Below, piece after piece: positions 199 to 36,249 of a stretch of 64,000 nucleotides of DNA (the stretch's first letter is position 1; each line of letters starts with the position of its first letter). The notes under the pieces are model-generated. The model searched no databases and was not told the DNA's origin. It was given only the letters and a program-made list of their open reading frames with translations. The stretch is from Clostridia bacterium (GTDB lineage: Bacteria > Bacillota > Clostridia > Oscillospirales > Acutalibacteraceae), in the NCBI GenBank assembly GCA_017452785.1, contig JAFTLT010000006.1, forward strand, positions 1 to 64,000, read 5' to 3'. The translations under genes and the position numbers were made by a program.

Positions 199-1248
199 TC
201 AGAATAAATCTGAAACCTTATCAATTATTTTTACAAGGGTAACAAAGACTTTTCCGAAAACACTTCTGAAAAATCCTGCAATACAGCTTTCATCATCCTG
301 CACCTCAATATTACCGCTGTCTGAAGCAGCACTGCCGTCAAAATCAGATGTGAACTGTGAAAGCCATGAAATCATTCCGTCAGGATATGTGAATTTAACT
401 TCGTTGCCCTTTCCGTCAACCGTTGACATATTGGGATAATCACCCCACTCATATGAAAACATATCGTGAGCAACTGCCTGCCATGATTCGTGACCGCTGG
501 GGGCGGGGCTGCCGTCAGGCATAACTGTCTGTGTCATTGACGAAAAACGGTTAACTGAATTCTTATTAGACACAGCACAGATATTGTTCCATGTTTTTTC
601 AACGCCCTTATAGTTAACGGCATTATCGTTCATTCCGCAGGTGAGCCATATGGGCATATCCTTTATTATTTGAAGGCTTGCTTCATCAGGTGACCACGCC
701 GGGCAAATAGGAAAAGCCGCCGCAAACATTTCCGGGTACGCAGTAATCATTTTAAGGGTCATTTTGCCGCCCATTGAGTAGCCGCCTATGTAAATGCGGG
801 TTATATCTATATTTTCTTTATTCTGAGCTATGAAATCATCTATTGCTGCTCTGAGAGGATAAACGGTTCTGTCTTCCCAATAAATTATCTTTTCCTCGGG
901 TGAACGTGGAGCCATAATGAATGCTCCGCCTGAGGGAAATCGGCTCTGAAACTCAGCACTTGTCCAATAGGAAATGTTGTTGTTTTTAATCTGTCTGCCG
1001 CTGTAGGAGCCGTCCCACATGCCGTGAAGCCACACAACGAGAGGATACTTTTTATTATCGTTTTCCTGCACCGGTGAAAAATAGAGATAATCAATTGCAA
1101 AGCCCTCTGTTTCAGACCCTGCACCATCTTTAAACTGAGTTTTGAGCACCTCTATGCCTGCCGAATAAGGCTCAGCTGCAAAGGCAGTGAGGCTGAGTGC
1201 CCCCAGAATAACTAAAATACTGCAAAGTAATGATATAATTTTTTTCAT
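199..1248 (-). CDS. Secreted PHB-depolymerase/feruloyl-esterase-like hydrolase
   Basis: Predicted exported alpha/beta-hydrolase of 349 residues, likely cleaving ester side chains of plant or mucin polysaccharide. Seen: an N-terminal MKK plus hydrophobic core ending in AFA (signal peptide), WLHG near residue 73, nucleophile elbow GYSMG with Ser at 158, then an Asp in CGMNDN and a His in GHESW that can complete the triad. The start was moved to the ATG at 1248 because GGAGGG sits 6 nt upstream; the longer reading frame lacks a ribosome site. The protein ends in an acidic linker and a C-terminal hydrophobic helix (FVTLVKIIDKVSDLF), a tail also seen on the neighbouring GH3. A paralogue lies at 12164-13222. 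Substrate is inference. Confidence 0.82.
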   Translation of the reverse strand: MKKIISLLCSILVILGALSLTAFAAEPYSAGIEVLKTQFKDGAGSETEGFAIDYLYFSPVQENDNKKYPLVVWLHGMWDGSYSGRQIKNNNISYWTSAEFQSRFPSGGAFIMAPRSPEEKIIYWEDRTVYPLRAAIDDFIAQNKENIDITRIYIGGYSMGGKMTLKMITAYPEMFAAAFPICPAWSPDEASLQIIKDMPIWLTCGMNDNAVNYKGVEKTWNNICAVSNKNSVNRFSSMTQTVMPDGSPAPSGHESWQAVAHDMFSYEWGDYPNMSTVDGKGNEVKFTYPDGMISWLSQFTSDFDGSAASDSGNIEVQDDESCIAGFFRSVFGKVFVTLVKIIDKVSDLF

Positions 1249-1283
1249 TTTCATCCCTCCTTTATAAGCTGAGTTTAGCATAA

Positions 1284-1316
1284 AAACAGGCGGTCTTGCA
1301 ATAAAACCGCCTGTTT
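1284..1316 (-). terminator. Rho-independent terminator of the GH3 gene
   Basis: Inverted repeat 1284-1294/1306-1316 (AAACAGGCGGT and its complement). On the minus strand it is followed by TTTTTATG. It separates the GH3 gene from the esterase gene. Confidence 0.8.
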
Positions 1317-1348
1317 CTTAATTTTTCTTAGTTTTTGCTTTCAAAGCA

Positions 1349-4006
1349 TCAGAATAAACCTTTAATCTTATCAAAGATGCCTGAAAAAGCTGACACAGCC
1401 TTATTGACTATATCCTTAATGAATGTCACCACAGCATTGTCGTCATCCACTGTGCTGTCTGACGGATTTTCAGGTACTGCGAGGTCGCCCTCAGGTGTAA
1501 ATGCATTTGACTCTATTTTCATTCTGCAGATATCATATACGCAAAGTCTCATTGCGTTGCCCATACCGATAGGGTCAGCCTTATAGGTTTCTTTAAGTGC
1601 ATTTCTTGTCTGCACAGCTGAAATGACATAGAGCATTGTCAGAATTGCATCATTTCTTGCGTAAACTGCAAGAGCAGGGTCAAGATAACCGCCACCTGTC
1701 AGGTCAATGCTTGCATCAGTGATAACAAAGCCGTCAAAGCCCCATTCGGTTCTGAGAAGGTCTGTTACAAGAGCCTTTGAGCCGCCGCACCACTGGTTAC
1801 CTATTCTGTTATATGCAGTCATTATACCCTTGGCGCCGCCCTCTTTAAATGAAATCTCAAAGGGCTCTGCATAAATTTCTCTGAGTGACTGCTCGTTAAG
1901 CCATGTGTAAAGACCGTTTGACTGTCTGTTTGTTTCCTGATCGTTTGCAACAAAGTGCTTGACAGTAACGATAATACCCTTTGACTGCACGCCTCTTGTA
2001 ACGGCTGCTGACATCTTGCCTGAAAGCAGAGGATCTTCTGAGAAGTATTCGTTATTTCTGCCGCCTAAGGGGCTGCGGTGAATATTACATCCCGGTGCGT
2101 ACCAGACATGAGTGCCAAGCTCAACGCCTTCCTGGCCCACAATTTCACCGAAATCTTCTGCAAGCTCATCATTCCAAGTGCATGCAATTACTGTTGCAAC
2201 GGGATAAGCAAGACCTGAATCCATATAGAGAAGACCGCCTGAGCCCTTGATGCATGAGGGGCCGTCATTATCTGATGTTGAGGGAATGCCAAGTCTGTCA
2301 AGACCTGCTGTTTCATAGCCGCAGTCACTGATAAGCTCAATCATTTCGTCAACTGTCAGCTGGTCAAGAAATGCATCCCATAAGCTATCATCCTTTGCAA
2401 CATCGCTGAGCATAATGGGGCCGTCATCATAAACCACACCTGTTTTGGGTGCCACACCCTCTTTGGTGGGCGCAGGTCTCTTATCGCTGTTTTTAACCTC
2501 TTCAGTTGCCTGATAGTTTGTGGGAGCTGTAGGATATGTGTCCTCAACATCGGCACGTGACATATAGGTCAAGTCACCCTCAGCAAAGCCGAAAAGGTTC
2601 TTGATTTCAGCACCTGAATAGCTGTCTGTCTTATAAACAACGGTTTCAGCCACGTTATATGTAAAGCTCTCCTCAAATGTTCTAATGTCACGGGCAACAT
2701 GAATTTTATATTCACCCTTGTCAAGAACCCATGCCTGCTCAGTTTTTGAATCATAAGAAGCCATATCTTCTGTGGCAAATTTAATTGTGAGCACTTCACT
2801 TTCACCGGGGGCAAGAAGCTTTGTTTTGTCATAGCCTGCAAGCTCAATGGCACTCTTTTCGATGCCGCCCATATAATAGGGAGCTGAGAAATAAACCTCT
2901 ACAACTTCCTTACCCGGCACAGTGCCGATATTTTTAACCTCAACCTCAACGCTGATTTCTTTTTCGTCAGCCTTATAGGATTTTACATCCCAGTCAAAGT
3001 CAGTGTATGAAAGGCCATAGCCAAAGGGATACATAACCTTTTCAGGTGCAAAGGTTTCAAAATATCTGTAGCCCACATAAATGCCTTCATTGTAATTTAC
3101 GAAATACTTAGGTATGCCGAAAACTCCCTTATAGGTGTAGCTGCCGAAATTCATATTTGAGGGATGATCCTCTAAGTTATATGCAATAGTGTCAGCCAGC
3201 TTGCCTGAGGGGTTGATTTCACCTGAAAGTACTCTGCCGACACTGTCCGTTGCAACCTCACCGGGAAGCCACATAATAAGTGCAGCCTTGATGCTGTCGT
3301 AATCGTCGAGCCATGACATATCCATAATATTTGAAATATTCAGAACAACAATAACATCAGAGAAAACGCCGCAGACCTTGTCAAGCATTGCCTTTTCTTC
3401 CTCTGTAAGCTTCAGGTCTTCCACACTCAGATCCTTCATTTCTGTGCCGACTCTGCCGATAACAACAACTGCCGTGTCTGAATAAGCAGCTGCCTGACTC
3501 ATAACACTGTCGCTGATGTCTCTAATAGGCATTTCAGACTGACCGCCTGAGAAGAACTGCTCAAGTACCGTGCCCACATAGTCAATGAGACCGCCGTCTG
3601 ATTCAGCATCGGTATAGTCTGCATAAATGTCATAAAGAGCCTTGTTATACTCTATGCCTGCATTTGTCAGGGCATCATAAAAGCCAACAGCCTGCGAAGC
3701 ACGCACTGCACCTGAGCCTGCTGCACCTGCAAAAGCAAGAGAGCATGAAGCTGAGCCGAAAACATTGACCTTCTTATTTTTAAGAGGAAGCACATCATCT
3801 TCATTTTCAAGCAAAACGATGCCCTCAGCCTCAATCTGCTTTGCTATTTCCTTAGCCTTTTCGGTGGTTTCGGGTGAAATTGCACTTTCCTCGGCAGAAA
3901 TGATAAAGCCTCCGCTTGCAAGGCTTGTTACGGGCAATGAAAATGCCAGAATAACAACCAGCAGAAGTGAAATCACATTTTTGAATAAGCCTTTTTTGTT
4001 TTTCAT
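1349..4006 (-). CDS. Secreted GH3 beta-glycosidase with permuted domain order
   Basis: Glycoside hydrolase family 3 enzyme of 885 residues with a signal peptide. The domains come in swapped order: the GH3 C-terminal alpha/beta sandwich first (about residues 50-360, including the AEGIVLLEN motif), then a fibronectin-III-like domain (about 375-450), then the TIM-barrel domain (about 550-800) with KHFVAND, RTEWGFDG and the nucleophile Asp in VITDAS (about 764). This arrangement is known in a GH3 subgroup from rumen and gut clostridia. The start at 4006 is set by AGGGGGA upstream; the longer frame adds 11 residues without support. An acidic linker and a C-terminal helix (NKAVSAFSGIFDKIKGLF) end the protein. 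Exact sugar specificity cannot be read here. Confidence 0.9.
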   Translation of the reverse strand: MKNKKGLFKNVISLLLVVILAFSLPVTSLASGGFIISAEESAISPETTEKAKEIAKQIEAEGIVLLENEDDVLPLKNKKVNVFGSASCSLAFAGAAGSGAVRASQAVGFYDALTNAGIEYNKALYDIYADYTDAESDGGLIDYVGTVLEQFFSGGQSEMPIRDISDSVMSQAAAYSDTAVVVIGRVGTEMKDLSVEDLKLTEEEKAMLDKVCGVFSDVIVVLNISNIMDMSWLDDYDSIKAALIMWLPGEVATDSVGRVLSGEINPSGKLADTIAYNLEDHPSNMNFGSYTYKGVFGIPKYFVNYNEGIYVGYRYFETFAPEKVMYPFGYGLSYTDFDWDVKSYKADEKEISVEVEVKNIGTVPGKEVVEVYFSAPYYMGGIEKSAIELAGYDKTKLLAPGESEVLTIKFATEDMASYDSKTEQAWVLDKGEYKIHVARDIRTFEESFTYNVAETVVYKTDSYSGAEIKNLFGFAEGDLTYMSRADVEDTYPTAPTNYQATEEVKNSDKRPAPTKEGVAPKTGVVYDDGPIMLSDVAKDDSLWDAFLDQLTVDEMIELISDCGYETAGLDRLGIPSTSDNDGPSCIKGSGGLLYMDSGLAYPVATVIACTWNDELAEDFGEIVGQEGVELGTHVWYAPGCNIHRSPLGGRNNEYFSEDPLLSGKMSAAVTRGVQSKGIIVTVKHFVANDQETNRQSNGLYTWLNEQSLREIYAEPFEISFKEGGAKGIMTAYNRIGNQWCGGSKALVTDLLRTEWGFDGFVITDASIDLTGGGYLDPALAVYARNDAILTMLYVISAVQTRNALKETYKADPIGMGNAMRLCVYDICRMKIESNAFTPEGDLAVPENPSDSTVDDDNAVVTFIKDIVNKAVSAFSGIFDKIKGLF

Positions 4007-4129
4007 ATTTATCCCCCTAATCTGATAAAATAGAAACATATATGTTATATTAGCATACTAATCATTTTTTTACAACAAAAAAGCAAAAAAATATGCAGAT
4101 TTACAAGAAGGCTTTATTTGTCTTAATGT

Positions 4130-4164
4130 AAAAAAGGATACACGTTTTTGGCGGTGTATCCTTT
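4130..4164 (-). terminator. Terminator of metK
   Basis: GGATACAC (4136-4143) pairs with GTGTATCC (4154-4161). The A-run at 4130-4135 becomes the T-run on the minus strand. It sits about 70 nt past the metK stop. Confidence 0.8.
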
Positions 4165-4230
4165 GTGATTTCACTTTATGGGCAGCAGAAAAAGCTCTTT
4201 TGAGGCTTCACCCTTTTGCGTACCCGAAAA

Positions 4231-5412
4231 TTAAACGAGAGCCTTGATAGCGTCAACCTTATCTGTCTTTTCCCACTGAACATCAAGGTCTTCTCTGCCC
4301 ACGTGGCCGTAAGCAGCAAGCTGACGATAAATGGGAGCTCTGAGCTTTAAGGTGTCAATGATAGCTGCAGGACGAAGATCAAAGACCTTATCAACGATTT
4401 CGCTTATCTTATCGTCGCCTATCTTACCTGTTGAGAAGGTGTCAACCATAACTGAAACGGGCTTTGCAACACCGATAGCATATGCCAGCTGAACCTCACA
4501 CTTTGAAGCAAGACCTGCGGCAACAATATTTTTAGCAACATATCTTGCAGCATAAGCAGCACTTCTGTCAACCTTTGTGGGATCCTTGCCTGAGAAAGCA
4601 CCGCCGCCGTGGCGTGAATAGCCGCCGTAGGTATCGACAATAATCTTTCTGCCTGTCAGGCCGCTGTCGCCCTGAGGTCCACCTGTAACAAAACGGCCTG
4701 TGGGGTTAACATAAATCTTTGTTTCCTCTGTCATAAGCTCAGCGGGAATAATAGGCTCGATAACATATTTTGTAATGTCTTCTCTTATCTGTGAAAGCTC
4801 AACATCTGCACTGTGCTGTGATGAAACAACAACTGCTGTTACGCTTTCGGGCTTGCCTTTTTCGTCGTACTGCACTGTTACCTGACTTTTGCCGTCTGCT
4901 CTGAGATAAGGAAGAGTGCCGTTTTTGCGCACCTCTGTGAGCTTCTTTGAGAGCTTATGAGCAAGTGAAATGGGAAGAGGCATAAGCTCCTTTGTTTCAT
5001 CACATGCAAAGCCGAACATCATACCCTGATCGCCTGCACCGTGAAGGTTATATGCATCCTCCTCACCGCCCTTGAGCTCAAGTGACTTATCAACACCCAT
5101 TGCAATATCAGGTGACTGCTCGTCAAGGGCAACAAGCACTGCACAGGTGTTGCCGTCAAAGCCCTTTGAGCCCTCATCATAGCCGATGTCGCAGACGACC
5201 TTTCTTGCTATTTTGGCTACGTCAGGCTTATAGACCGATGAAATTTCACCCATAACAATCACCTGGCCTGTTGTTACTGTTGTTTCACAGGCTACTCTTG
5301 CCTGTGGGTCATGTGAATAAATATCATCGAGGACAGCATCTGAAATCTGGTCGCAGATTTTATCGGGATGTCCTTCTGTTACTGATTCTGATGTGAAAAG
5401 AAATCTTGCCAT
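4231..5412 (-). CDS. metK: S-adenosylmethionine synthetase
   Basis: Makes S-adenosylmethionine from methionine and ATP in the cytoplasm. At 393 residues it has the normal family length and shows the family motifs: [17 protein letters not shown] near the N-terminus, [16 protein letters not shown], and the phosphate-binding glycine loop [16 protein letters not shown]. The ATG has TAAAGGAG 8 nt upstream. It is transcribed alone from a sigma-A-type promoter (5683-5711) through a SAM-I riboswitch with an intrinsic terminator, so its product should repress its own synthesis. Confidence 0.98.
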
Positions 5413-5530
5413 TTTAATTACTCCTTTATATTAAAACTATTTTGTTACTGTATTTTTTCTGCAACAATATTGCAGAGGGCCGTCGAGGACGCCGATCCCA
5501 ACATCCATAATTCCTCATTCATAATTAAAT

Positions 5531-5560
5531 AAAAAAACTGCAGTCCTATCCCGACCGCAG
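5531..5560 (-). terminator. Riboswitch-controlled terminator upstream of metK
   Basis: Eight-bp stem (5553-5560 with 5538-5545, one G-U pair) with a 7-nt loop, followed on the minus strand by seven T. It is the expression platform of the SAM-I riboswitch. Confidence 0.85.
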
Positions 5561-5567
5561 ATATAAG

Positions 5568-5661
5568 CCTTATCTTTCGGTCAGACCGCAGGATTTAGCA
5601 CCTTGCAAACGCAGGTTGCCGAGCTTCAACGGGCCTGTTCCCTCAGCTTCTCTTAATAAGG
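5568..5661 (-). promoter_or_regulatory. SAM-I (S-box) riboswitch aptamer
   Basis: On the minus strand the order is CCTTAT (P1 5' arm), AAGAGA, GCTGAGGGA, CCCGTTGAAGCTCGGCAACC, a hairpin, then GACCGAAAGATAAGG closing P1. These are the conserved S-box blocks. Together with the terminator at 5531-5560 it forms a transcriptional OFF switch for metK. Confidence 0.95.
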
Positions 5662-5682
5662 AAATATTAATTTTACCGTGAT

Positions 5683-5711
5683 ATTATATCAGCGGTGCCC
5701 TGTGTTGTCAA
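5683..5711 (-). promoter_or_regulatory. metK promoter
   Basis: Consensus TTGACA (5711-5706) and TATAAT (5688-5683) with a 17-nt spacer on the minus strand. Transcription would start about 15 nt before the riboswitch aptamer. Confidence 0.88.
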
Positions 5712-5843
5712 TAGTTTTTTATAAAAAACAGATTTTTCCTAACATGCTCCCCTTTAACACTGCCGTAACTTTTTTTGAGCTGCAGGCATAGAATGTATCA
5801 GGCAGTTAATTTAAGCTGCAATAATATTAAGGGAGCGATAAAA

Positions 5844-6068
5844 ATGAATAACACTAAATGTGCATACGCTTCTCAGCTGAGGATGTCTTCTGATACACAG
5901 TGCTGCTCACAGCTAAAGGAGCTGCCCCGTGAACTGAGTCTCGCTATGGCATATGTACCTTTTCAGCAGTGGTGTGACAATATTTACACCGCAGATAAAG
6001 CCCTTTGTCAGGGCACACTTTTCCCCATGCTCGACCTTCCTTTTACCCAAGGGGGCAGATGCAGATGA
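5844..6068 (+). CDS. cotJA: Spore coat protein CotJA
   Basis: Small spore-coat-associated protein of 74 residues, first gene of the cotJ operon; in Bacillus the operon is made in the mother cell under SigmaE. Seen: the family core LAMAYVPFQQWCDNIY followed by GTLFPMLDLPF. The ATG at 5844 was chosen because GGGAG lies 8 nt upstream; the longer frame adds 23 residues without family similarity. It overlaps cotJB by ATGA, so translation is coupled. CATAGAAT near 5787 resembles a SigmaE -10 box, but I could not find a convincing -35. Confidence 0.9.
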   Translation: MNNTKCAYASQLRMSSDTQCCSQLKELPRELSLAMAYVPFQQWCDNIYTADKALCQGTLFPMLDLPFTQGGRCR

Positions 6069-6319
6069 TTAACACAAAATCAAACCTTAAGCACAGAATT
6101 ATGGCAATACGCTTTGCTATATGGGACTTACATCTTTATCTTGACACACATATTGGTGACTGCATGGCACTTGAGCTGACAGAAAAATATAAAAAGCAGC
6201 TCAGACAGCTTATGGATGAATACATCTGTCAGTACGGCCCTATTTCAATTAAAGATGATAACGCCGAAAAATGGCTTTGCACACCCTTTCCTTGGGTAAA
6301 CAGCGGGAGTGATTGCTGA
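6065..6319 (+). CDS. cotJB: Spore coat protein CotJB
   Basis: Second cotJ gene, 84 residues. Seen: the family pattern FAIWDLHLYLDTH, then a helical region and a C-terminal aromatic CTPFPWV segment. The ATG at 6065 has AGGGGG 9 nt upstream (inside cotJA) and overlaps the cotJA stop by 4 nt; an ATG at 6059 is too close to the ribosome site. Its stop overlaps the cotJC start by one base. The role in coat assembly is known only from the family. Confidence 0.9.
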   Translation: MINTKSNLKHRIMAIRFAIWDLHLYLDTHIGDCMALELTEKYKKQLRQLMDEYICQYGPISIKDDNAEKWLCTPFPWVNSGSDC

Positions 6320-6924
6320 TGTTCCAATATGAAAAAATCTTACAGTACCCTATCAATATTAAAAATCCCAACCCTATGTATGCTAAAATTATAATGACGC
6401 AGTACGGTGGCCCCGACGGAGAATTAGGTGCTTCACTGCGTTATCTCAGCCAGCGCTTTGCAATGCCCTGCTGCGAGCTTCAGGGTCTGCTGACGGATAT
6501 AGGCACCGAAGAGCTCGGCCACCTTGAAATGATAGGTACTCTCGTTTATCAGCTGACAAGAAACCTTTCATGTGAGGAAATCAAGAAGCAGGGCTTCGAT
6601 GCTTACTTCGTTGACCACACAACAGGTGTTTACCCTGCTTCAGCATCAGGGGTACCCTTTACGGCAGCGTACCTGCAGTCAAAAGGCGATGTGATAACTG
6701 ACCTTCACGAGGATATGGCGGCTGAGCAGAAGGCAAGAACCACCTATGACAACATTCTCAGACTCGTTGATGACCCCGATGTAAAAGATGTCATTAAGTT
6801 CCTCAGAGCAAGAGAGGTCGTTCACTATCAGCGCTTCGGTGAAGGTCTGAGACTGGCAACGGATAAGCTTAACGAAAAGAACTTCTATGCCTTTAATCCG
6901 GCTATTGACAAAAACTGCAAATAA
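6319..6924 (+). CDS. cotJC: CotJC, manganese-catalase-family spore coat protein
   Basis: Ferritin-like, manganese-catalase-family protein of 201 residues, the conserved partner of CotJA and CotJB in the spore coat. Seen: metal-ligand-type motifs TEELGHLEM, EDMAAEQKAR and REVVHYQRF in the expected order, and the HTTGVYPASASGVPF stretch typical of CotJC. The start is the ATG at 6319 with GGGAG 9 nt upstream; an in-frame TTG at 6313 is less likely. It is followed directly by a strong terminator, so the operon is cotJA-cotJB-cotJC only. Catalase activity is possible but not shown by sequence. Confidence 0.94.
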   Translation: MFQYEKILQYPINIKNPNPMYAKIIMTQYGGPDGELGASLRYLSQRFAMPCCELQGLLTDIGTEELGHLEMIGTLVYQLTRNLSCEEIKKQGFDAYFVDHTTGVYPASASGVPFTAAYLQSKGDVITDLHEDMAAEQKARTTYDNILRLVDDPDVKDVIKFLRAREVVHYQRFGEGLRLATDKLNEKNFYAFNPAIDKNCK

Positions 6925-6928
6925 GGAG

Positions 6929-6955
6929 CAAAACCACCGGTTGTCGGTGGTTTTG
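6929..6955. terminator. Shared bidirectional terminator of cotJC and DUF454 gene
   Basis: An 11-bp perfect stem (6929-6939/6945-6955) with a GTTGT loop, starting with AAAACC and ending in GGTTTTG. It lies between convergent genes. Confidence 0.85.
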
Positions 6956-6978
6956 TCTTTAAATATACATTAGTTATA

Positions 6979-7386
6979 TTAATTCTCGCTCACTGTTTCA
7001 GCTTCTTCAGGCTCATACTTCTTAACCCCAAAACAGAAGTATAGAATATGGAACAGCCAGACACCGCCTAAAATTGCACAGGGAATATAAAGATCTTTTC
7101 TGAACATCATAAAGAATCCGAAGCTCATAAGAAGTGTTACGGTTATCATAATTCTGATTTTGGTTTTCCATGTCATACCCTGACCTTTAACATAAGATTC
7201 AAGGTTGTTTTTATAGAGCTTTGTATTTATAAACCATGTATGGAGTTTTTCTGAGCTCTTGGCAAAGCTGTATGCCGCAAGAAGCAGAAACGGGAATGCA
7301 GGTATCATCGGTACCACAGCACCAACTGCACCCAAACCCACACCGATACAGCCTAAAACTACAAAAAATATTTTCTTGGGACTCAT
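6979..7386 (-). CDS. DUF454 (YbaN-type) membrane protein
   Basis: Small integral membrane protein of 135 residues. Seen: two N-terminal hydrophobic segments with the family signature VPMIPAFPFLLLAAYSFAKSS, then two more hydrophobic stretches (about 75-120) and an acidic tail. Biochemical function of the family is not known. It is the last gene of the NEAT/ABC/YgbA operon; its ATG overlaps the preceding stop (ATGA) and has GGAGG upstream. The company of a NEAT protein and the operator upstream hint at iron or heme physiology. Confidence 0.85.
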   Translation of the reverse strand: MSPKKIFFVVLGCIGVGLGAVGAVVPMIPAFPFLLLAAYSFAKSSEKLHTWFINTKLYKNNLESYVKGQGMTWKTKIRIMITVTLLMSFGFFMMFRKDLYIPCAILGGVWLFHILYFCFGVKKYEPEEAETVSEN

Positions 7387-12163: not shown

Positions 12164-13222
12164 TTATTTAAAGAGTATTTCAATAAACTTAAGAATGAAT
12201 TTGAAAATCTTATTTATAGATTCAAGAACCGATGTTGAGGGCACCTCCACCTCAGGCTCTTTATCTTCATCCTCGTCATTGCCACCTATCACTCCGTCAA
12301 GACTCTGACTTGAAAGCCACGACAAGAAGCTGTCATTGACAGTCAGTGACACAGCCTCGCCATTGCCGTTAAGTGTTATCATGTTACTGTAAAGCTTTCC
12401 GTTATTCATAATAAGGTCGTGCGCAACAGCGTCCCATGAGTTATGCTGAAAAACAGAATAAATCGGGTCAAGCACAGGTGTGATACCGTTTGGGTTGACA
12501 AGAGGAGAAATGAAATATGTCCAACGGTTCAAATCCTTGCAAGAGGAATTGGTCTTCCAGTAATTCCACATATTGGTTGCAATAGCATGTGCATTGAGGC
12601 TTGTGTTTATGTAGTCACTTCTGCAGGTAAACATCCAAATGGGAGTATCCTTGAGGGCTTTAAGATCTGAGTTTGATGGATTATAAACGGAAGACATAGG
12701 GAATATGGCAGCAAAATATCCGGGATATGCTGCTGCAAGTCTGATAGTACCCTTGCCACCCATTGAAAAGCCTCCGAGATAAATACGACTCGTGTCAATA
12801 TTCTTCTTATACTTAGAAACAAACTGGTCAATAGATTTCTTCAAATCACTGACCGGGCCGTTCCATGCCATATCAAGCTGTAGTGTCGGGTCACGGGGCA
12901 GGAAAATAAATGCTCCGCCTGTGCCCTTGATTTTTGCCTGATACTCTTCACTTGACCAGAGAGCAACCTCGCAGTTTTCAAGCTGATAACGTTTGTAGTC
13001 ACCTGAGAACTGACCATGAAGCCAGATTATCAGAGGATATTTTGTTGTGTCACTTGTTTTTTTGACCGGTGTATAGTAAACATAGTCAAAATTATTTTTG
13101 CCGTCTGCAAACTGTGATTCAAGCGCTTCCAGTCCTTCATTTACACTCATTGCCGAAGCAGTAAAAGTAAAACAGGAAACAGTCATCAGTAAGCATATTA
13201 AAAGTGATATTGTTTTTTTCAC
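12164..13222 (-). CDS. Secreted esterase-like hydrolase, paralogue of 199-1248
   Basis: Exported alpha/beta-hydrolase of 352 residues. Seen: signal peptide beginning with KKTISLLICLL, WLHG near 67-70, elbow GFSMG with Ser about 153, and a His in QHNSWDAVAHDL. The start is a GTG at 13222 with AAGGAGG 7 nt upstream; the longer ATG frame has no ribosome site. The C-terminus is a strongly acidic linker (GGNDEDEDKEPEVEV) followed by a hydrophobic-basic helix INKIFKFILKFIEILFK. Same family as the esterase at the left end, and the same kind of tail. Likely acts on ester-linked side chains of glycans; substrate is inference. Confidence 0.82.
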   Translation of the reverse strand: MKKTISLLICLLMTVSCFTFTASAMSVNEGLEALESQFADGKNNFDYVYYTPVKKTSDTTKYPLIIWLHGQFSGDYKRYQLENCEVALWSSEEYQAKIKGTGGAFIFLPRDPTLQLDMAWNGPVSDLKKSIDQFVSKYKKNIDTSRIYLGGFSMGGKGTIRLAAAYPGYFAAIFPMSSVYNPSNSDLKALKDTPIWMFTCRSDYINTSLNAHAIATNMWNYWKTNSSCKDLNRWTYFISPLVNPNGITPVLDPIYSVFQHNSWDAVAHDLIMNNGKLYSNMITLNGNGEAVSLTVNDSFLSWLSSQSLDGVIGGNDEDEDKEPEVEVPSTSVLESINKIFKFILKFIEILFK

Positions 13223-13361
13223 AGTCCGGCCTCCTTCAAGCATATTTTTTAAGTTTCTACAATTATACATTTATTTTTCTGATAAATCAATGTACAAATC
13301 TTTAAATATTATTACATTATCTTTTCACATTTTGTTGTTTTCACATAATCCGACATAAAAA

Positions 13362-27993: not shown

Positions 27994-28010
27994 TCAAAAA
28001 TGCGCTGTTA

Positions 28011-29095: not shown

Positions 29096-29124
29096 ATTGT
29101 AGCATATATTTTTAAAATTGTAAA
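29096..29124 (-). promoter_or_regulatory. galM promoter
   Basis: TTTACA (29124-29119) and TACAAT (29101-29096) with a 17-nt spacer on the minus strand. Confidence 0.6.
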
Positions 29125-29167
29125 TGCAAAATATAAAATGCAAAATTATTGTATGCGTCATAATATG

Positions 29168-29197
29168 CAAAAGCGGCAGGAACTTCCCGCCGCTTAA
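29168..29197 (-). terminator. Terminator of the secreted repeat-protein gene
   Basis: AAGCGGC (29171-29177) pairs with GCCGCTT (29189-29195), with inner GGAA/TTCC pairing and TTTTGC following on the minus strand. Confidence 0.75.
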
Positions 29198-29214
29198 GGT
29201 TTGATATTAATTTA

Positions 29215-30492
29215 TTAGAACATTGTTTTAACGAGGTTGATGAACATAATGATAAGACAAATAAGGTTGTTATAGAAGCCTTCGTGTACGGGTCTGCCGC
29301 AATCTTCACAGTAGAGCTGTTCGCCGCCGTTATCGCAAATGCCGTCACCGTCTTCGTCAGCGTGACCGAGTGCAGGAATTACTTCCTGTTCTACTGTCAT
29401 ATCGTCACAGCGTGAGCAGTGTGAACCCTCTGTGAGACCCGTTTCTTCGCACTTGGGAGCTATTGCTTCGTCGGTAATTATATCGTGACCGAGTTCGGGA
29501 ACAACTTCCTGAGCTACTGTTTTATCTTCACAGCGTGAGCAATGTGAACCCTCTGTGAGACCTGTTTCTTCGCACTTGGGTGCTACTGCTTCGTCGGTAA
29601 TTATATCGTGACCGAGTTCGGGAATAACTTCCTGAGCGACTGTCATATCGTCACAGCGTGAGCAGTGCTGACCTTCTGTGAGACCTGTTTCTTCGCACTT
29701 GGGTGCTACATAAGCATCAACAATGATGTCATGGTCAAGAGCAGGAACAACTTCCTGAGCTATTGTTGCATCGTCACAATATAAACAGCGCGAGCCCTCT
29801 GTAAGACCTGTTTCTGTGCAGGTAGGTGCAACTGCTTCATCGGTAGTAACTATATCGTGGTCTAAGTGTTTTAACTCAAACTCATCAAGATAAATCGGTC
29901 TTCCGCCTGTTGCCCAGGATCCGGATTTTACTTTTTCAAAAACCCACTTAAAGACTTGCTGGTCGCCTTCAGCGGTAAATGTATAGGATTCATCTAAGAT
30001 ATTTACGTATGGGTTAGGAGTCCGCGTAAAGTCATGGAGTATTTTTTCTTCACCGTTGTGGTAAAATCTTAAATAATATGATCCGTATTGAATAAATCCA
30101 TGACTTATCGCCCAGGAAAAATCCAACTTGTATGTTTCGCCGGGGACAGTATCCATTACAAGATATGATGTGATACTATCATTTTTAATACTATTGCTCG
30201 CCATATGTGAGATATTACCTGTTCTGCCATAATAATCACCAACTGACCATCTGTCGCTAGCCTCATATATTAACTCACTACAATAAACACAGTTCACATC
30301 AGTTTTTATGTCGCCATCATCTTCGAGAATATGACCGACATCCGCGACACGTTCAAGTCCGCAGTGATCACAATATATATCGCAGTCACTTATATATACG
30401 TGTTCATCTGCTGCAAAAGCCATTGGTACTAATGTCGCAACCATTAAGATTGCAAGGATGATTGATAAGGTTTTCTTTAATGTGTTTTTCAT
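29215..30492 (-). CDS. Secreted protein with four ~41-residue CxxC repeats
   Basis: Exported protein of 425 residues, function unknown. Seen: signal peptide (1-27), CDHCG and CVYC motifs, a beta-rich domain (about 75-215), then four repeats of about 41 residues each of the form GHDIITDEAVAPKCEETGLT and HCSRCDD, a type common in gut clostridial surface proteins. After a short DEDGDG segment with CEDCG, the protein ends in a hydrophobic helix (NLICLIIMFINLVKTMF). GAAAGGAG precedes the ATG, which overlaps the stop of the upstream TetR gene by ATGA. Being coupled to its likely regulator suggests tight control. Confidence 0.82.
   Translation of the reverse strand: MKNTLKKTLSIILAILMVATLVPMAFAADEHVYISDCDIYCDHCGLERVADVGHILEDDGDIKTDVNCVYCSELIYEASDRWSVGDYYGRTGNISHMASNSIKNDSITSYLVMDTVPGETYKLDFSWAISHGFIQYGSYYLRFYHNGEEKILHDFTRTPNPYVNILDESYTFTAEGDQQVFKWVFEKVKSGSWATGGRPIYLDEFELKHLDHDIVTTDEAVAPTCTETGLTEGSRCLYCDDATIAQEVVPALDHDIIVDAYVAPKCEETGLTEGQHCSRCDDMTVAQEVIPELGHDIITDEAVAPKCEETGLTEGSHCSRCEDKTVAQEVVPELGHDIITDEAIAPKCEETGLTEGSHCSRCDDMTVEQEVIPALGHADEDGDGICDNGGEQLYCEDCGRPVHEGFYNNLICLIIMFINLVKTMF
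29361..29859. repeat. Four 123-126 bp tandem repeats inside the secreted protein gene
   Basis: The unit starts near 29361, 29484, 29607, 29730 and ends about 29856. The middle copies are the most alike, consistent with recent duplication. Confidence 0.9.
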
Positions 30493-31199
30493 TGTTTTGC
30501 TCCTTTCGGGAATTTATTTTTCATTTTTATTGCAAGCTCACTGAAAACGTCTTCGACAGCTTTTTTTGCAACCGTCTCAAAGTCGATTTTCCGGGTGAAC
30601 TCAATAGCCTCATTAATTTTTTTATCATCAGCTTTGTAAATGCGAAGAAGCATTGTCACAAGTCTGTTTGCTTTAGCTTCTATGGTAAAATACATATCGC
30701 AGGGAATAGTCATATATGCTCTCATAATGCCCATTGAAGCGATTTCCGTTTCATAAAAATCTTTCTTTTCAAACTTAGGAAACATCTCTGAGAAGACTTC
30801 GTACATTATATCCGTGCGTCTTATGAGCACCGCTTCGCTTGTTTTTTGCAGAGAATAACCGGCAAGATAGAGATTTCGCATATCCTCGTTCATCTCTGCC
30901 ATATAAATCTGCAAAACCTCATTGGCTATATAAATTAAAATTTTATCGTCGGTGAGCTTTTTCGATTGAGCATCAGAAGCCGCCGTAACGCCGTCAAGAA
31001 ATTTTGAAACAAGGGCACAGAGGATATCTTCTTTTGATTTCATCTCATAAAAGATTTTTGTTTTGGGTATCCCCGACAGCTTTGCTATATCCTGCACCGT
31101 TGTGCGCTCATAGCCTTTTTCCATAAACAGCTCTGTTGCCGCTGTCAGGACCCTTTTATATATTTCAGCAGTTTCAGCCGCATCTCTTATATTTGCCAT
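30489..31199 (-). CDS. TetR-family transcriptional regulator
   Basis: Regulator of 236 residues. Seen: N-terminal helix-turn-helix TTVQDIAKLSGIPKTKIFYE within the TetR DNA-binding domain (about 12-60) and a helical ligand domain without further match. GGAGG lies before the ATG. It is followed in the same transcript by the secreted repeat protein. A perfect 7-bp inverted repeat at 31213-31232 between the promoter and the gene is a likely operator for autoregulation. The ligand is unknown. Confidence 0.9.
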   Translation of the reverse strand: MANIRDAAETAEIYKRVLTAATELFMEKGYERTTVQDIAKLSGIPKTKIFYEMKSKEDILCALVSKFLDGVTAASDAQSKKLTDDKILIYIANEVLQIYMAEMNEDMRNLYLAGYSLQKTSEAVLIRRTDIMYEVFSEMFPKFEKKDFYETEIASMGIMRAYMTIPCDMYFTIEAKANRLVTMLLRIYKADDKKINEAIEFTRKIDFETVAKKAVEDVFSELAIKMKNKFPKGAKQ

Positions 31200-31212
31200 G
31201 TTGCCTCCTTTC

Positions 31213-31232
31213 TCAATTTAAAATCAAATTGA
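31213..31232 (-). promoter_or_regulatory. Candidate TetR operator
   Basis: TCAATTT-6nt-AAATTGA, perfect arms (31213-31219/31226-31232), lying in the 5' leader of the TetR gene. Confidence 0.55.
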
Positions 31233-31254
31233 ACTGCGGTTTAATTTCGAGGCT

Positions 31255-31283
31255 ATTTTAACACAGTCAAAATTCACTGTCAA
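31255..31283 (-). promoter_or_regulatory. Promoter of tetR/repeat-protein operon
   Basis: TTGACA (31283-31278) and TAAAAT (31260-31255) with a 17-nt spacer on the minus strand. Confidence 0.75.
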
Positions 31284-31360
31284 TATTTTACACCGAAAAA
31301 ATTTGTGACTCCGAGTTAAAAATTCAGGTTTAATTTTTGGTTAATTTGACGAAGGCGGGG

Positions 31361-31453
31361 GCGGCTCCGCAAAAATCTCTCCGGGATTTTTCGGCGAAGA
31401 GTTCGCCGTGCCGAATGGAATTCGGCAGTGGAGCCGCGTGCCACCGTTGGCAC
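31361..31453. other. GC-rich cloverleaf-like inverted-repeat structure
   Basis: An outer 8-bp stem (GCGGCTCC 31361-31368/GGAGCCGC 31430-31437) encloses three perfect 7-bp hairpins: 31371-31377/31385-31391, 31392-31398/31402-31408 and 31410-31416/31420-31426. A fourth hairpin follows (31438-31453). It has no open reading frame that looks real. GC content is well above the flanks. Possibly a mobile palindromic element or a structured RNA. 31454-31513 shows nothing I can name. Confidence 0.6.
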
Positions 31454-31513
31454 AGACTGACTGGAAAGTTACAATCGACAGCACTTCCCCCCTTGTGAGC
31501 ACCTGCTCTGCGG

Positions 31514-31556
31514 CATAAAAACAAAAGCAGCCACAGGCTTCCCCGCAACCGCTTTT
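31514..31556 (-). terminator. Terminator of the EamA gene
   Basis: A 14-pair stem (with G-U pairs) AAAAGCGGTTGCGG / CTGTGGCTGCTTTT on the minus strand, followed by TGTTTTT. Confidence 0.72.
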
Positions 31557-31561
31557 ATTAT

Positions 31562-32512
31562 CTATTCTTTATTATCTATTCTTTCAGCAAAGCTCCGCTT
31601 TGCCCCCTTCTCCGGCAGCTGTGCCACAATTATTGCCGCAAACATCAATATGCAGCCGAGAGTTTCCCTCATAGTGGGCACCTGAGAAAGTACCACCATA
31701 GCTGTCAGCACACCGAAAACGCTCTCAAGCGACATTATCATGGTGGCTATTGTGGGCTCGGTTTTCTGCTGACCTAAAATCTGCAAGGTGTAGGCTATGC
31801 CGCTTGACATTATGCCCGAATATGCTATCGAGGGAGCCGCTGCCCTGAGTGCCTCAAATGTCACATCTTCCATAAGCAGCATGGGTACCGAAGCTATAAC
31901 ACCCGCCACAAAAAACTGCAACGTCGAAAGACGCACGCCGTCAAGCCTTGGCGACACCTTGTCAATAACCATTATGTGCACCGCAAAACAAAAAGCACAG
32001 GCTAAAACATAAAGGTCTGACATTTGTACCCTGCCGCCCTCTTTAACGCACAGCAGATAAAGGGCAATTATCGATACAACCACACATACCCATATAATGG
32101 GTCTTATTTTTTTGCCGAGCACCACAGAGAAAATGGGCACAAGCAAAATATAAAGTGCTGTTATGAATGCCGCCATACCGGGAGCAGTGCCGCTGTCAAT
32201 ACCAAGCTGCTGCAAAGATGATGCCGCAAAAAGCACAACACCGCAGGCGATACCGCCAACGAGCAGATATTTATAGTCAGCCTTAGTCATTTTTTTATAT
32301 TCGTCGGCTCTTGTCTTTTTCTTTACCGTATCCATAACGAATATAACGGGCAACAGTGCCACCGAGCCTAAAAGGCTCCTCATAGCAATAAATGTGAAAG
32401 GGCCAACGTGCTCTGCCCCCGTAGTCTGAGCAACAAAGGAGCTGCCCCATATTATAGCTGCAAGTGCAAGCAGCACTGAACCGATTAAACTGTTTTTTCG
32501 TGTCTGTGTCAT
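31562..32512 (-). CDS. EamA/DMT-family transporter
   Basis: Ten-helix drug/metabolite transporter of 316 residues with two EamA repeats. Seen: WGSSFVAQTTGAEHVGPFTFIAMRS in the first repeat and a second repeat from about 160 with LESVFGVLTAMVVLSQ. Substrate unknown. It lies 10 nt after the DUF554 gene, so the two are co-transcribed. The last codons (AKRSFAERIDNKE) are encoded by a palindromic repeat (31587-31603), also present outside genes at 27930-27946, so the C-terminal tail may be repeat-derived. Confidence 0.9.
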   Translation of the reverse strand: MTQTRKNSLIGSVLLALAAIIWGSSFVAQTTGAEHVGPFTFIAMRSLLGSVALLPVIFVMDTVKKKTRADEYKKMTKADYKYLLVGGIACGVVLFAASSLQQLGIDSGTAPGMAAFITALYILLVPIFSVVLGKKIRPIIWVCVVVSIIALYLLCVKEGGRVQMSDLYVLACAFCFAVHIMVIDKVSPRLDGVRLSTLQFFVAGVIASVPMLLMEDVTFEALRAAAPSIAYSGIMSSGIAYTLQILGQQKTEPTIATMIMSLESVFGVLTAMVVLSQVPTMRETLGCILMFAAIIVAQLPEKGAKRSFAERIDNKE

Positions 32513-32522
32513 AATAAACCTC

Positions 32523-33239
32523 TTATGCCAATGCAGGAATATATTTGCCTAAAAATTCAAAGAGATAGCACACAAAAGGTGCAAGCACAAGTGCAGGGAA
32601 ATAGTTAGCAACCTTAAACTTTGCAAGACCTGTCAGATTAAGTCCGAGAGCTAAAATCATAAGTGAGCCTACACATGTTATCTCTGCAACGGCACTCTCA
32701 CTCAGAAGCGGCTCAAGAAGACCTGCTGCAAGCACTATTCCGCCCTGAAAAACTAAAACGAAAATTGCGGCAAAAATTACACCGATACCAAGGCTTGCAC
32801 TGAGCATGCATGAAGAAAACAGGTCGAGTATACTCTTTGTAAAAATTGTTGTGTGGTCCCCCTTGAGACCTGATTCAAGTGAACCGATAATTGTCATGGC
32901 TCCCACGCAGAAAAGCAAACTTGCAGTAACAAAGCCCTCAGCTATAGTGACCTTATCTGTGTCACCCTTTTTCAGTTTTTTTGAAAGGAAATCGCCTGCG
33001 CCGCTGAGCTTGCCGTCAATATCAAGAGCAGTGCCGATAATGGCACCTATAACCATTGAGATAATAGCCACAAGCACATTTTCGCCCTTGAGCATTCCCT
33101 GAATGCCTATAAGCACAGTGCAAAGGCCTATGCCTATCATAACTGCATCCGTATATTTTTTTGATATACCCTTTTTGAATATAAGACCAATTGTGCTGCC
33201 GATTAAAACTGTGGCAACATTGACTATAACGCCTATCAT
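32523..33239 (-). CDS. DUF554 (YdfK-type) membrane protein
   Basis: Polytopic membrane protein of 238 residues of the DUF554 family, function unknown. Seen: GVIVNVATVLIGSTIGL at the N-terminus, MVIGAIIGTALDID, EGFVTASLLFCVGAMTIIGSLESGL (the most conserved part) and several further hydrophobic segments. The ATG at 33239 fits the family start; an ATG three codons upstream is possible. First gene of the DUF554-EamA pair. Confidence 0.9.
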   Translation of the reverse strand: MIGVIVNVATVLIGSTIGLIFKKGISKKYTDAVMIGIGLCTVLIGIQGMLKGENVLVAIISMVIGAIIGTALDIDGKLSGAGDFLSKKLKKGDTDKVTIAEGFVTASLLFCVGAMTIIGSLESGLKGDHTTIFTKSILDLFSSCMLSASLGIGVIFAAIFVLVFQGGIVLAAGLLEPLLSESAVAEITCVGSLMILALGLNLTGLAKFKVANYFPALVLAPFVCYLFEFLGKYIPALA

Positions 33240-33387
33240 TTTATACATCTTCTTTCATAAGAAACTAAGTAGCATTATATCACATCCGCCACCGAAAAGT
33301 AAATATATTTCTCTTACAGATTATGACTTTTTTCTATAAGGCATAAGATTATAATTTATAGCGACTAAATCTGAAAGGTAGATAGAA

Positions 33388-35715
33388 ATGAAAATAAAAG
33401 ACAAGGATATATCTTTCGGCGACACTGCCGAGCTTAATTTTGATCATTCAGAAGATACAGCAGAAAAAAGCATATATTATTATCTGAAAATTGCTCTGTT
33501 TTCTTTTGCAGGGCTTTGCTTTTCTTTGCTTGAGTGTCTTGGCACCATATCGCCCTTCACAGCCGCTTTTTTATCTGCAGTTGATTATTCATACTGCTTT
33601 CCTGCGTTTCTTTTCGGGTCTTTGGGCTACTTTATTTCTCAGCCATGGCAAGGTGCACTGAAATATACTTTTTCCTGCGCAGCTATCTGCATATTAAGGC
33701 TCATAATAAACAAGCGCTTTCATCACCTTGATAAGGGCAAGGTCAATTACATAGGTGCTTTCCTTTGTATTTTTATTCCCGGCATTATCTTTCTTGCCTT
33801 TTCAGGCATAAACTTCACAAGCGTTTTCATGCTTATTTGCGAAAGTCTGCTTGCCTTTTGCGCTTCTCTGTTTTTTATCAGGAGCTTTAAAACACCCGTT
33901 ATGCGAATAGGCATTTCTTCCCTCAGCATAAAAGACAGCACGAGCATTGTTATATCTATAGGCATATTTCTTATGTGCATGTCAGGCTTCAACATTGAGG
34001 GGCTCTCCCCTGCCCGCATTCTGTCGAGTATTCTGATTATGTTCCTTTCGCTTTATAAAGGCAGCAGCCTTGGTGCTGTCGGCGGAGTTTTAGTGGGTAG
34101 TGCTCTTTGCATAGACAGCTCACTCAGATATCTTTTTCCCTGCTATGCTCTTGCCGGTCTAGTGTCAGGAGTTTTTTCACCTCTGGGTCAGATTGTCACT
34201 GCAATAGCCTACGGTGTCAGCTTTTCTCTTATATGCCTTATCGGTAACACATCAAGTGATGTGCTTATATGTCTTGTTGAAACCGCAATAGCTTCAGCGT
34301 CTTTTATGCTTATCCCCTCACGGTGGATAACATCACTGCAGGACTATCTTTTAAAAAGCGGTATCGTTTCAGATAATCAGCTATCAAGTCAGGTGTCAGC
34401 CCAGCTTCACGCAGCAGCAAACAATATCTATGATGTAGCAAAGGTAGTGACCGGTGTGAGTGAAAAGCTTGACGGCATAATAAACCCTGAGGTTAACCGC
34501 CTTTTTGCAGCTCTGCAGCAAAGAGTGTGCACTTCCTGCACCAATAAAAGCAAATGCTGGCATAAAATGTTTGACTCAACAGCAAGTGACATTCTGTGTC
34601 TTGCAGGCATTGAAAAAAAGTCACCCGGCAAGCTGCCTATAGAAAAACGCTGCCCTCGCCGTGAATTGCTCATAAGTGAAATTCAGGCAGCACTTCCCGA
34701 TTACACCAATAACATTGCCATGAAAATGAAAGTGCGTGAAATGCGAAAGGTACTCACCGATGAATTCTGCGCTATGGGAGATTTTCTTAAGGAAACTGCT
34801 GACAAGGTACAAGGCAGTCGCATTGCAGACACGGCACGCTCCACTGCCGTGAGAACTGCTTTGCAAGATGCAGGAATTTACACCGATGCACTTTGCTTTT
34901 TTACAGACAATGACGGCAGAGTCACAATTGAGATAAGCATTATTGACCGTCCTTTTGAAACTGACCACAAAAAGCTGAAAAATATCCTGGAATTTTTGTC
35001 AAAGCGCAGATTTTCTGAGCCGACGATAGCTGTCAGCGAAATAAAAACAACTATCATCTTTTATGAAAAAGCTTCATTTGAGGTTCAGTTCGGCTATAGC
35101 CAGAAGCCTTTGAAAAAAGGCGGTCTTTGCGGGGACAGTGTCAGCTTTATTCCGTGCCCCGACGGCAACAAGGCAGCACTTATAAGTGACGGCATGGGTA
35201 CAGGCTCAAGAGCAGCTATTGACAGCACCATGACCTCATCAATAGCAGAAAAGCTGATTTCGGGGGGCTTTTCCGTAGCCGGTGCAATTAAAACATTAAA
35301 CTCTGCTATGATTATGAAATCAACTGACGAGTCAATTGCAAGCGTGGACTGTGTGAGCATTAACACCTATACGGGTGTTGCTTCATTTTATAAGTCGGGG
35401 GCTGCCATCAGCTTTATAAGAAGCGGCAATGAGGTTTATATTGTTAAGCTCGAATCCTTACCCGTTGGCATAATCAGAAATATTTCCCCTGCAAGCGAGA
35501 GTGTGCAGCTCGAAAGTGGTGACATAATTTTACTCGTCTCAGACGGTGTAACAGCTAAGGATTGCGGTTGGATAAATGACGAGCTTTTATCGTGGAGCAC
35601 AAATAATATGGAAGACCTCGCCTCACATATAGCCTCTCTTGCCCTGCTTCGCAGCGATAAAAACACAAGAGACGATATAACAGCCGTGGCACTGAAAATA
35701 ACAAAAAGCAAATAA
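33388..35715 (+). CDS. spoIIE: Stage II sporulation protein E (PP2C phosphatase)
   Basis: Membrane-bound serine phosphatase of 775 residues that dephosphorylates SpoIIAA and so activates SigmaF in the forespore; also tied to the polar septum. Seen: about ten N-terminal membrane segments (about 25-315), a central cytoplasmic region with a CTSCTNKSKCW cysteine cluster, and a C-terminal PP2C domain with metal-binding DGMGTG (about 600), SKGAAI-like YKSGAAISF, LLVSDGVTA and RDDITAV. GAAAGG lies before the ATG. No clear Spo0A box was seen upstream, though TATAAT at about 33350 may be the -10. Its presence supports endospore formation. Confidence 0.96.
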   Translation: MKIKDKDISFGDTAELNFDHSEDTAEKSIYYYLKIALFSFAGLCFSLLECLGTISPFTAAFLSAVDYSYCFPAFLFGSLGYFISQPWQGALKYTFSCAAICILRLIINKRFHHLDKGKVNYIGAFLCIFIPGIIFLAFSGINFTSVFMLICESLLAFCASLFFIRSFKTPVMRIGISSLSIKDSTSIVISIGIFLMCMSGFNIEGLSPARILSSILIMFLSLYKGSSLGAVGGVLVGSALCIDSSLRYLFPCYALAGLVSGVFSPLGQIVTAIAYGVSFSLICLIGNTSSDVLICLVETAIASASFMLIPSRWITSLQDYLLKSGIVSDNQLSSQVSAQLHAAANNIYDVAKVVTGVSEKLDGIINPEVNRLFAALQQRVCTSCTNKSKCWHKMFDSTASDILCLAGIEKKSPGKLPIEKRCPRRELLISEIQAALPDYTNNIAMKMKVREMRKVLTDEFCAMGDFLKETADKVQGSRIADTARSTAVRTALQDAGIYTDALCFFTDNDGRVTIEISIIDRPFETDHKKLKNILEFLSKRRFSEPTIAVSEIKTTIIFYEKASFEVQFGYSQKPLKKGGLCGDSVSFIPCPDGNKAALISDGMGTGSRAAIDSTMTSSIAEKLISGGFSVAGAIKTLNSAMIMKSTDESIASVDCVSINTYTGVASFYKSGAAISFIRSGNEVYIVKLESLPVGIIRNISPASESVQLESGDIILLVSDGVTAKDCGWINDELLSWSTNNMEDLASHIASLALLRSDKNTRDDITAVALKITKSK

Positions 35716-35816
35716 ACTGAAAGGGACTGTGCTTAAAACTGACACCCGATAAGAAAGCTTTTTAGAAAACAAGAGAGTTTCGCCATAAAATCGCCTATTT
35801 GTTGTATAAGACAAAA

Positions 35817-36100
35817 CCACCCGAAGAAGAACGGAAAATTCTTTTTCAGGTGGTATCTTTTTCTGTTAAGTTTCAAACCTACGGTTTGAAGTGAAGCTGT
35901 AACGCATTACAGTGAAGTATTTGCCTATTCAGGCAAATATGAAGTTAAGTTCGCCCTCAAAGTCAAAGCACTTGCAAAGCAAACTTCACTACGCAGTAAC
36001 TTCTCTGCCTCATGGCAACTTCACTTGCCCGTCAGGGCAAACTTAGTTTCGGCACAGTATGAAGCATTGCTCAGAACACTGCCTTATATCACTGTGCCGA
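35817..36100. repeat. Modular hairpin repeat, copy 2
   Basis: Second, longer copy of the repeat at 18151-18380. It has the same terminator-like first stem (CCACCCGA...TCAGGTGG) and the same final hairpin (36049-36058/36091-36100), with two extra hairpins in the middle (CTGTAACGCATTACAG and TATTTGCC...GGCAAATA). Hairpins are again spaced by ACTTCAC/GTGAAG heptamers. It lies between spoIIE and a leftward 40-residue peptide gene. Positions 35716-35816 hold nothing I can name. Confidence 0.85.
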
Positions 36101-36126
36101 TAACACAGTTCCTTAAAATATTCTGA

Positions 36127-36249
36127 TTAAACAGCTGCAGTTGTTTCTTCGTCAGTTGCTTCCTCATCACTTGGGAACATCTCGCCAAAATATCCTGCAA
36201 GAGCTTCAAAAATAGATATAAGAAGATCGATTAATTCACGGATTGACAT
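36127..36249 (-). CDS. 40-residue amphipathic peptide
   Basis: Very small protein: an amphipathic helix (MSIRELIDLLISIFEALAGY, residues 1-20, then FGEMFP) followed by an acidic Thr/Glu tail. AGGAG lies 9 nt before the ATG, and the stop is clean. It has no signal peptide. The helix closely resembles in character the C-terminal helices of the secreted enzymes in this window, but here helix and acidic part come in reverse order. I do not recognise a family. The gene runs toward repeat copy 2. Confidence 0.65.
   Translation of the reverse strand: MSIRELIDLLISIFEALAGYFGEMFPSDEEATDEETTAAV

Follow-up and report, generated by a model that had tools for sequence, protein, structure and literature searches.

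Amphipathic C-terminal helices on unrelated exported proteins of a clostridial lineage as candidate surface anchors

It is poorly understood how uncultured gut Clostridia keep adhesins and polymer-degrading enzymes at the cell surface. The window (the whole stretch of DNA analysed here, 64,000 nucleotides long) raises this question through four genes: a preliminary description had pointed to four exported proteins of different families that end in a short helix, and had proposed the helix as a membrane- or surface-retention signal of the lineage. All four genes, their tails and a signal peptide at the start of each protein (called with our own script) were found, as follows.

199..1281, minus strand: esterase P0001, a secreted alpha/beta-hydrolase with a type II tail (Pfam; signal peptide by our own script)
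202..285, minus strand: type II tail of P0001, a 28-residue amphipathic helix region ending LF (periodicity over the last 22 residues, p 0.015)
1349..4039, minus strand: P0002, a secreted GH3 glycoside hydrolase with a type II tail (Pfam; signal peptide by our own script)
1352..1435, minus strand: type II tail of P0002, a helix region ending LF with a Ser/Asp-rich linker before it (periodicity p 0.003)
12164..13270, minus strand: esterase P0003, a secreted alpha/beta-hydrolase with a type II tail (Pfam; signal peptide by our own script)
12170..12229, minus strand: type II tail helix of P0003, residues 348-367 (AlphaFold2; periodicity p at the lowest value that 2000 shuffles allow)
12233..12289, minus strand: acidic linker of P0003, residues 328-346, predicted to be disordered (pLDDT < 50 at 328-337 and 339-346)
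29215..30492, minus strand: P0004, a secreted CxxC-repeat protein with a type I tail (signal peptide by our own script)
29218..29310, minus strand: type I tail of P0004, CEDCGRPVH followed by a helix ending INLVKTMF (alignment A5; periodicity p 0.02)

The nearest solved structure to P0003 is the esterase 3doh, and an AlphaFold2 prediction made with 21 relatives gives an enzyme of high confidence, a disordered linker positioned between the catalytic domain and the tail, and the tail helix 348-367 at a pLDDT of ~73. The helix region of P0001 is also preceded by a linker, rich in Ser, Asp and Glu. P0004 has no Pfam model over its cut-off, and its tail aligns with two other proteins of the same genome (alignment A5). 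A third esterase paralogue elsewhere in the genome (G000:C25) carries a tail of its own, as does its neighbour. The Pfam domains of P0002 run Glyco_hydro_3_C (74-345), Fn3-like (378-450) and Glyco_hydro_3 (607-777), opposite to the order usual in GH3 enzymes.

Three tail forms, which we call types I, II and III, have the helix in common. The preliminary description took the four window tails to be alike, which stands for the three enzymes, all of type II, while the CxxC-repeat protein differs in being of type I. Type II, whose carriers include both window esterases and the GH3 enzyme, is a bare amphipathic helix. Type I places CxxCGxxH before the helix; P0004 and two more proteins of the genome carry it as CxDCGRPVH with a helix ending INLxKxMF, and the Cys and His columns are invariant in these three rows. 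Type III consists of C-x-[C/H]-x-C-H, a helix of ~20 residues and CxCGxxH[Y/W]; it was first met in a sample of genome stretches, and was invisible to the preliminary description because the copy on the window's contig (78359-78526) lies outside the window. A sister form, type Ib, reads CKYCGKVHTGFFGKI..FFHNI.YFFKNLF. With hardly any letters conserved in type II, a profile built from the four window tails (A1) found six places at E < 0.001 in the genome, two of which led to type I.

A type III profile search of the genome returned 27 rows, of which 24 are real (the other three, L056-L058, are short frames and were discarded), the 24 being partly redundant through contig ends and through contigs C11 and C68, with one, L035, lacking the last motif. 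Across 42 distinct type III sequences, selected with a pattern that requires one His and the other Cys and leaves position 5 and the last H free, C occupies position 5 in 31 and H in the other 11; the G is conserved in 39 and the last H in 41, with a Y after it in 36 cases and a W in 5. Such a swap between C and H is the behaviour of a metal ligand, which makes the type III Cys and His residues candidate ligands; judged from the residues themselves, the Cys/His clusters of types I and III probably bind a metal such as zinc, the combination of conserved Cys/His ligands with C/H exchange expected of a zinc module being found in type III only. AlphaFold2 folds the type III tail alone into a helix at 12-26 (mean pLDDT 79, pTM 0.48), and a search for solved structural relatives of this tail found none. 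Several contigs end at or near type III genes (C42 58241-58300, C50 4-60, C27 40-228, C7 196-354, C26 28258-28365 and C68, all of G000); the same tail sequence is present at the end of C42 and the start of C50, and the tails of C11 (58967) and C68 are identical, so that repeated tail-bearing genes may break the assembly at contig ends.

The position of type III is strict, with 17 of the 24 rows ending exactly at the stop codon and the remaining 7 no more than 18 residues from it, and a genome holds many unrelated carriers, as is typical of sortase- or exosortase-like signals. Both features would suit a processed sorting signal, in which cleavage by a dedicated peptidase, close to the Cys motif or the linker, would be coupled to joining the protein to an envelope component. 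We nevertheless consider processing quite improbable: the tails read here lack the arrangement of motif, spanning helix and basic end, no motif is common to the type II tails, and in type III the residues resembling metal ligands follow the helix, where a discarded piece would not need them. PEP-CTERM, MYXO-CTERM and GlyGly-CTERM tags have NCBIfam models, and in a scan of 10 tails alone neither these, nor other NCBIfam sorting tags, nor any other NCBIfam or Pfam model matched over its cut-off; the single NCBIfam row, primosomal protein N' at E 0.38, fell far below its own.

The hydrophobicity of the tails has its strongest period at 100 degrees (windows: the last 22 residues for types I and II, the 20 residues after the CH motif for type III). 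Mean power there is 4.47 for type II (n=16 from the window's genome, partly picked by a score that contains amphipathic periodicity), 4.36 for type I (n=3) and 3.47 for type III (n=19), against 1.44 for cytoplasmic C-termini (n=258, 36 of them below p 0.05). Seventeen esterase relatives from other genomes, picked by their catalytic domain with the tails disregarded and leaving aside one esterase with a type III tail (L205) and nine distant rows, give a mean power of 3.91 (Fisher-combined p 9e-16); 14 of the 17 beat shuffles (< 0.05) and three do not, L206 clearly so. When these relatives without L206 were combined with the window's two esterases and their paralogue (19 proteins, 171 pairs), mean identity was 46% over the catalytic part but fell to 12% over the tail, the latter computed ungapped from the C-terminus; what is conserved is therefore the property and not the letters.

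Amphipathic helices also make protein contacts, and the tails could instead be docking modules that bind each other or a common surface partner, such as an S-layer-like protein or a scaffold, rather than lipid. The Cys/His motifs could mediate such assembly, and the invariant letters of type III exceed what membrane binding needs; type II, however, keeps its amphipathicity with few fixed letters, unlike a specific contact, and the exchange of tails for transmembrane anchors described below also counts against docking, which we regard as unlikely.

Two further features named in the preliminary description do not extend to tails in general. A helix finishing in F or LF(K) had been noted in all four window proteins, yet a terminal F is present in only 4/16 type II tails of the genome and 1/17 esterase relatives, and terminal F was rejected as a signal. 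The linker of the type II tails in this genome is enriched in acidic residues (24% D/E; untailed secreted proteins have 14.5%, p 0.003), whereas that of the esterase relatives is not (14.8% D/E), and an acidic linker was likewise rejected as a general part of the tail.

The tails are found on secreted proteins more often than expected by chance in the window's own genome (2.44 Mb, 74 contigs), as the preliminary description would have it. Within a sample comprising the window and 40 further stretches (637,657 bases), a tail score of at least 0.6 was reached by 25 of 70 predicted secreted proteins lacking an inner transmembrane segment and by 9 of 266 cytoplasmic proteins (Fisher p 2e-12, the proteins not being fully independent), the score having been devised after the first tails were seen and the genes and signal peptides called with crude scripts of our own. 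At 0.75 the counts are 19 and 6, and inner 45-mers of secreted proteins reach this higher cut in 10/640 cases. One of the 25 high-scoring secreted proteins (43626-45449) has a transmembrane tail; a slightly different secreted set that excludes such tails gives 24/72. Replication in the congener G003, with the score fixed, is weaker: the 0.6 cut is borderline (5/30 secreted vs 14/229 cytoplasmic, p 0.053), and the excess is clear at 0.75 (4/30 vs 1/229, p 0.0007). A Mann-Whitney comparison in G003 gives p 0.047. A lipobox was flagged in 2/24 tailed proteins (both apparently false by eye) and 12/47 untailed ones (some doubtful), and mutual exclusion of lipobox and tail, though suggestive, is not significant (p 0.12).

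The carriers belong to unrelated families. Among the type I and type III proteins with the N-terminus in hand (n=23), a signal peptide was called by script in 22 and by eye in the other, L169. Pfam matches in 36 tailed proteins (to E 0.1 for the window proteins and E 1e-5 for the others) include LRR_5/BspA, CHAP, transglutaminase, DUF6273, fn3, List-Bact repeats, metallophosphatase, PQQ propeller, DUF4430, alpha/beta-hydrolase and GH3, and many of the 36 have no match. The same scan found no SLH domain, no dockerin and no family for the tail itself, and an LPxTG-like signal is absent from the tail sequences, in agreement with the preliminary description. Five giant type III proteins (L166, L167, L169, L173 and L175; 1521-3830 aa) have at most a List-Bact repeat (Pfam, E 1e-5) and closely similar signal peptides of the kind MKKxxFKKxxSLxMAVxMxMxCWVFVAPQKAEA, and are perhaps a family of giant surface proteins.

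Ordinary C-termini might look similar, and the helices could then be parts of their host domains, or commonplace hydrophobic ends, with no role in common. The unconserved letters of type II would fit such an account, as would two GH3 orthologues that stop before the tail. The tails nevertheless occur on unrelated domains, and in P0003 a disordered linker separates tail and enzyme. Nor are such ends general: samples of seven other genomes, from the same family (2), order (4) and phylum (1), show no enrichment, 5/46 secreted proteins reaching the score with no excess over 39/483 cytoplasmic ones. Three of those five end in a transmembrane or LPxTG-like segment, and the cytoplasmic background rises to 10/54 in one of the seven. 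The absence of any common role thus appears very unlikely.

Relatives of the window enzymes show what can stand in the tail's place. A search of 150 genomes of the family with the esterase gave 32 matches, of which 30 have a locus (3 in the window's genome, 27 in others) and two do not. All 18 close relatives, on a line between 183 and 117 bits that was drawn after the scores were seen, combine a signal peptide with a hydrophobic tail at the C-terminus. Seventeen of them are of the type II position, 16 reaching the score and L201 scoring 0.53; L205, from the congener G003, bears a type III tail on the same esterase. The distant esterases L197, L199 and L209 end in a transmembrane segment with a basic end, L195, L196 and L198 have neither signal peptide nor tail, and three others are parts of long frames running past the locus in which a signal peptide cannot be judged.

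The GH3 evidence on anchor exchange is mixed. Eight complete relatives (L257 is incomplete) comprise four with a tail that is Phe-rich and hydrophobic by composition, one with an LPxTG-like end, one with a transmembrane end (L254) and two without a tail. In the LPxTG-like relative, L253 of G009, NPLTGD is followed by a hydrophobic stretch and a final RRRK. The two tail-less proteins, L251 and L252, are the closest (73-74% identical), and no tail could be recognised downstream in three frames over 240 bases; at least this GH3 enzyme can therefore do without one. Exported homologues lacking the helix thus number five with transmembrane or LPxTG-like ends (L197, L199, L209, L253 and L254) and two that are bare. 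The expectation that homologues in sister species keep the tail was borne out by the close esterases, 17 of 18 reaching the score, and only in part by GH3, where it is missing in 2/8.

Placement at the very end, unrelated exported hosts, a property that is kept and exchange with transmembrane segments are together best read as a membrane anchor. Basic, Phe-rich helices also resemble membrane-active peptides, and tail helices of this composition might act on other cells or vesicles, delivering enzymes to foreign membranes in the manner of an antimicrobial peptide. The hosts, which are enzymes and large adhesin-like proteins, would however seem better used at the cell's own surface, and on related domains the tail is replaced by transmembrane anchors; action on foreign membranes seems to us extremely unlikely.

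Within the genomes sampled, the forms with cysteines are confined to a lineage. Strong type III matches are found in 8/150 family genomes, including the window's own and two congeners (best 50 or fewer candidates per genome), and the phylum sample of 398 holds no strong match besides the own genome (best 19 or fewer candidates per genome), with matches at E > 0.001, in 6 family and 6 phylum genomes, taken as chance. Among the 150, strong matches to the window's version of type I come from the own genome (3) and G122 (3). Type Ib, searched with a four-row profile from G043, matches 15 times in G060, 10 in G043, 4 in G087 and singly in three more genomes (E up to 0.001, limited candidates per genome); the tail was read in 23/30 loci. 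The phylum sample gave 0/398 (best 19 or fewer candidates per genome) and the order sample 1/295, in another family (limited candidates per genome). Spread of types III and Ib through the phylum was thus considered and not seen in these samples of 398. L290 (G558), with a type Ib-like tail CSYCGQVHPKTFVGFLIYIFHML..., belongs to another family of the order and is the only one seen outside the family. Different genera may have multiplied different versions, type III in the window's genus and the CKYCGKVHTGFFGKI form in others. Named type III carriers amount to at least 11 loci in at least 9 MAGs, whose titles read Clostridia bacterium or Oscillospiraceae bacterium; in some, more tailed genes adjoin the match, and among the matches listed seven of these MAGs come from the cecum, colon or rectum of goat, buffalo, roe deer or yak. 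Lack of a sortase was rejected as a reason for the tails, since 137/150 family genomes, the own included, have a sortase match; with one such match and transmembrane anchors present in the own genome, there is no obvious need for tails.

What is observed here is a helix pattern that is concentrated on exported proteins, modular and, within the samples, restricted to a lineage; retention on the outer face of the membrane, as in PBP5, is our best reading of these features, the binding to membrane being what we infer. The retention signal of the preliminary description is supported by the unrelated exported hosts, the transmembrane replacements and the lineage-restricted Cys forms, and we think it probable that the tails are interchangeable C-terminal anchors whose membrane helix holds exported proteins at the cell surface. 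Judging by its signal peptide, the protein would be exported, and the last ~20 residues would then fold into a mildly basic, amphipathic helix rich in Phe and lodge in the outer leaflet of the cytoplasmic membrane, with the catalytic or binding domain standing off on a flexible linker. The helix would keep the protein at the cell surface much as the C-terminal helix of PBP5 does, and in types I and III the adjoining Cys/His clusters would probably bind a metal such as zinc and so brace or cap the helix. More tentatively, the clade may possess an envelope-retention system of its own, in which the metal-braced amphipathic helix of types I and III, borne by enzymes and adhesin-like proteins, replaces the sortase or S-layer anchoring used elsewhere; a dedicated partner might recognise the Cys/His cap.

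If the tails are anchors, surface location would be predictable from the last 25-45 residues in a group of bacteria of the ruminant hindgut, and many proteins that seem freely secreted would be cell-bound. They would also offer a short, genetically encoded tail for surface display, and with types I and III a probable metal-binding motif would join the known bacterial envelope signals. A search of the open-access literature found no published description of such tails, which is weak evidence of novelty, and in the available text of a review of cell-surface display in monoderms the words amphipathic, amphiphilic and monotopic do not occur (PMC5817068).

Like the tails, LPXTG/sortase signals sit at the C-terminus of many unrelated exported proteins; they combine a motif, a spanning helix and a basic end, which the tails are without, and an LPxTG-like end stands where the tail would sit in the GH3 relative L253. 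C-terminal transmembrane anchors stand where the tail would be on related domains, those of esterases (L197, L199 and L209) and of GH3 (L254), with an uninterrupted spanning segment and a basic end where the tails are amphipathic. MYXO-CTERM, the myxosortase tag, is also C-terminal, has an invariant cysteine and is found, within one phylum, on dozens of surface proteins in each genome; according to the available text it has a spanning helix and an arginine-rich end, and lipidation is predicted for its cysteine (PMC11980579); the tails differ in a helix proposed to lie in the plane of the membrane, in several Cys and His residues, and in a type III motif that follows the helix. E. coli PBP5 (DacA) has a signal peptide and a C-terminal amphipathic helix at the outer face of the cytoplasmic membrane, an anchor tested by removal of 18 residues, as far as the available text describes it (PMC2909392), and the exported proteins described here similarly finish with an amphipathic helix some 18-25 residues long. 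The PBP5 anchor belongs to one enzyme family in that text, whereas the tails are spread over unrelated exported families of one lineage, and their Cys/His variants are absent from the same part of the PBP5 account (PMC2909392). None of the 36 tailed proteins scanned has a peptidase S11 (D,D-carboxypeptidase) domain; they are therefore not members of the PBP5 family, and the likeness lies in how the tail would work.
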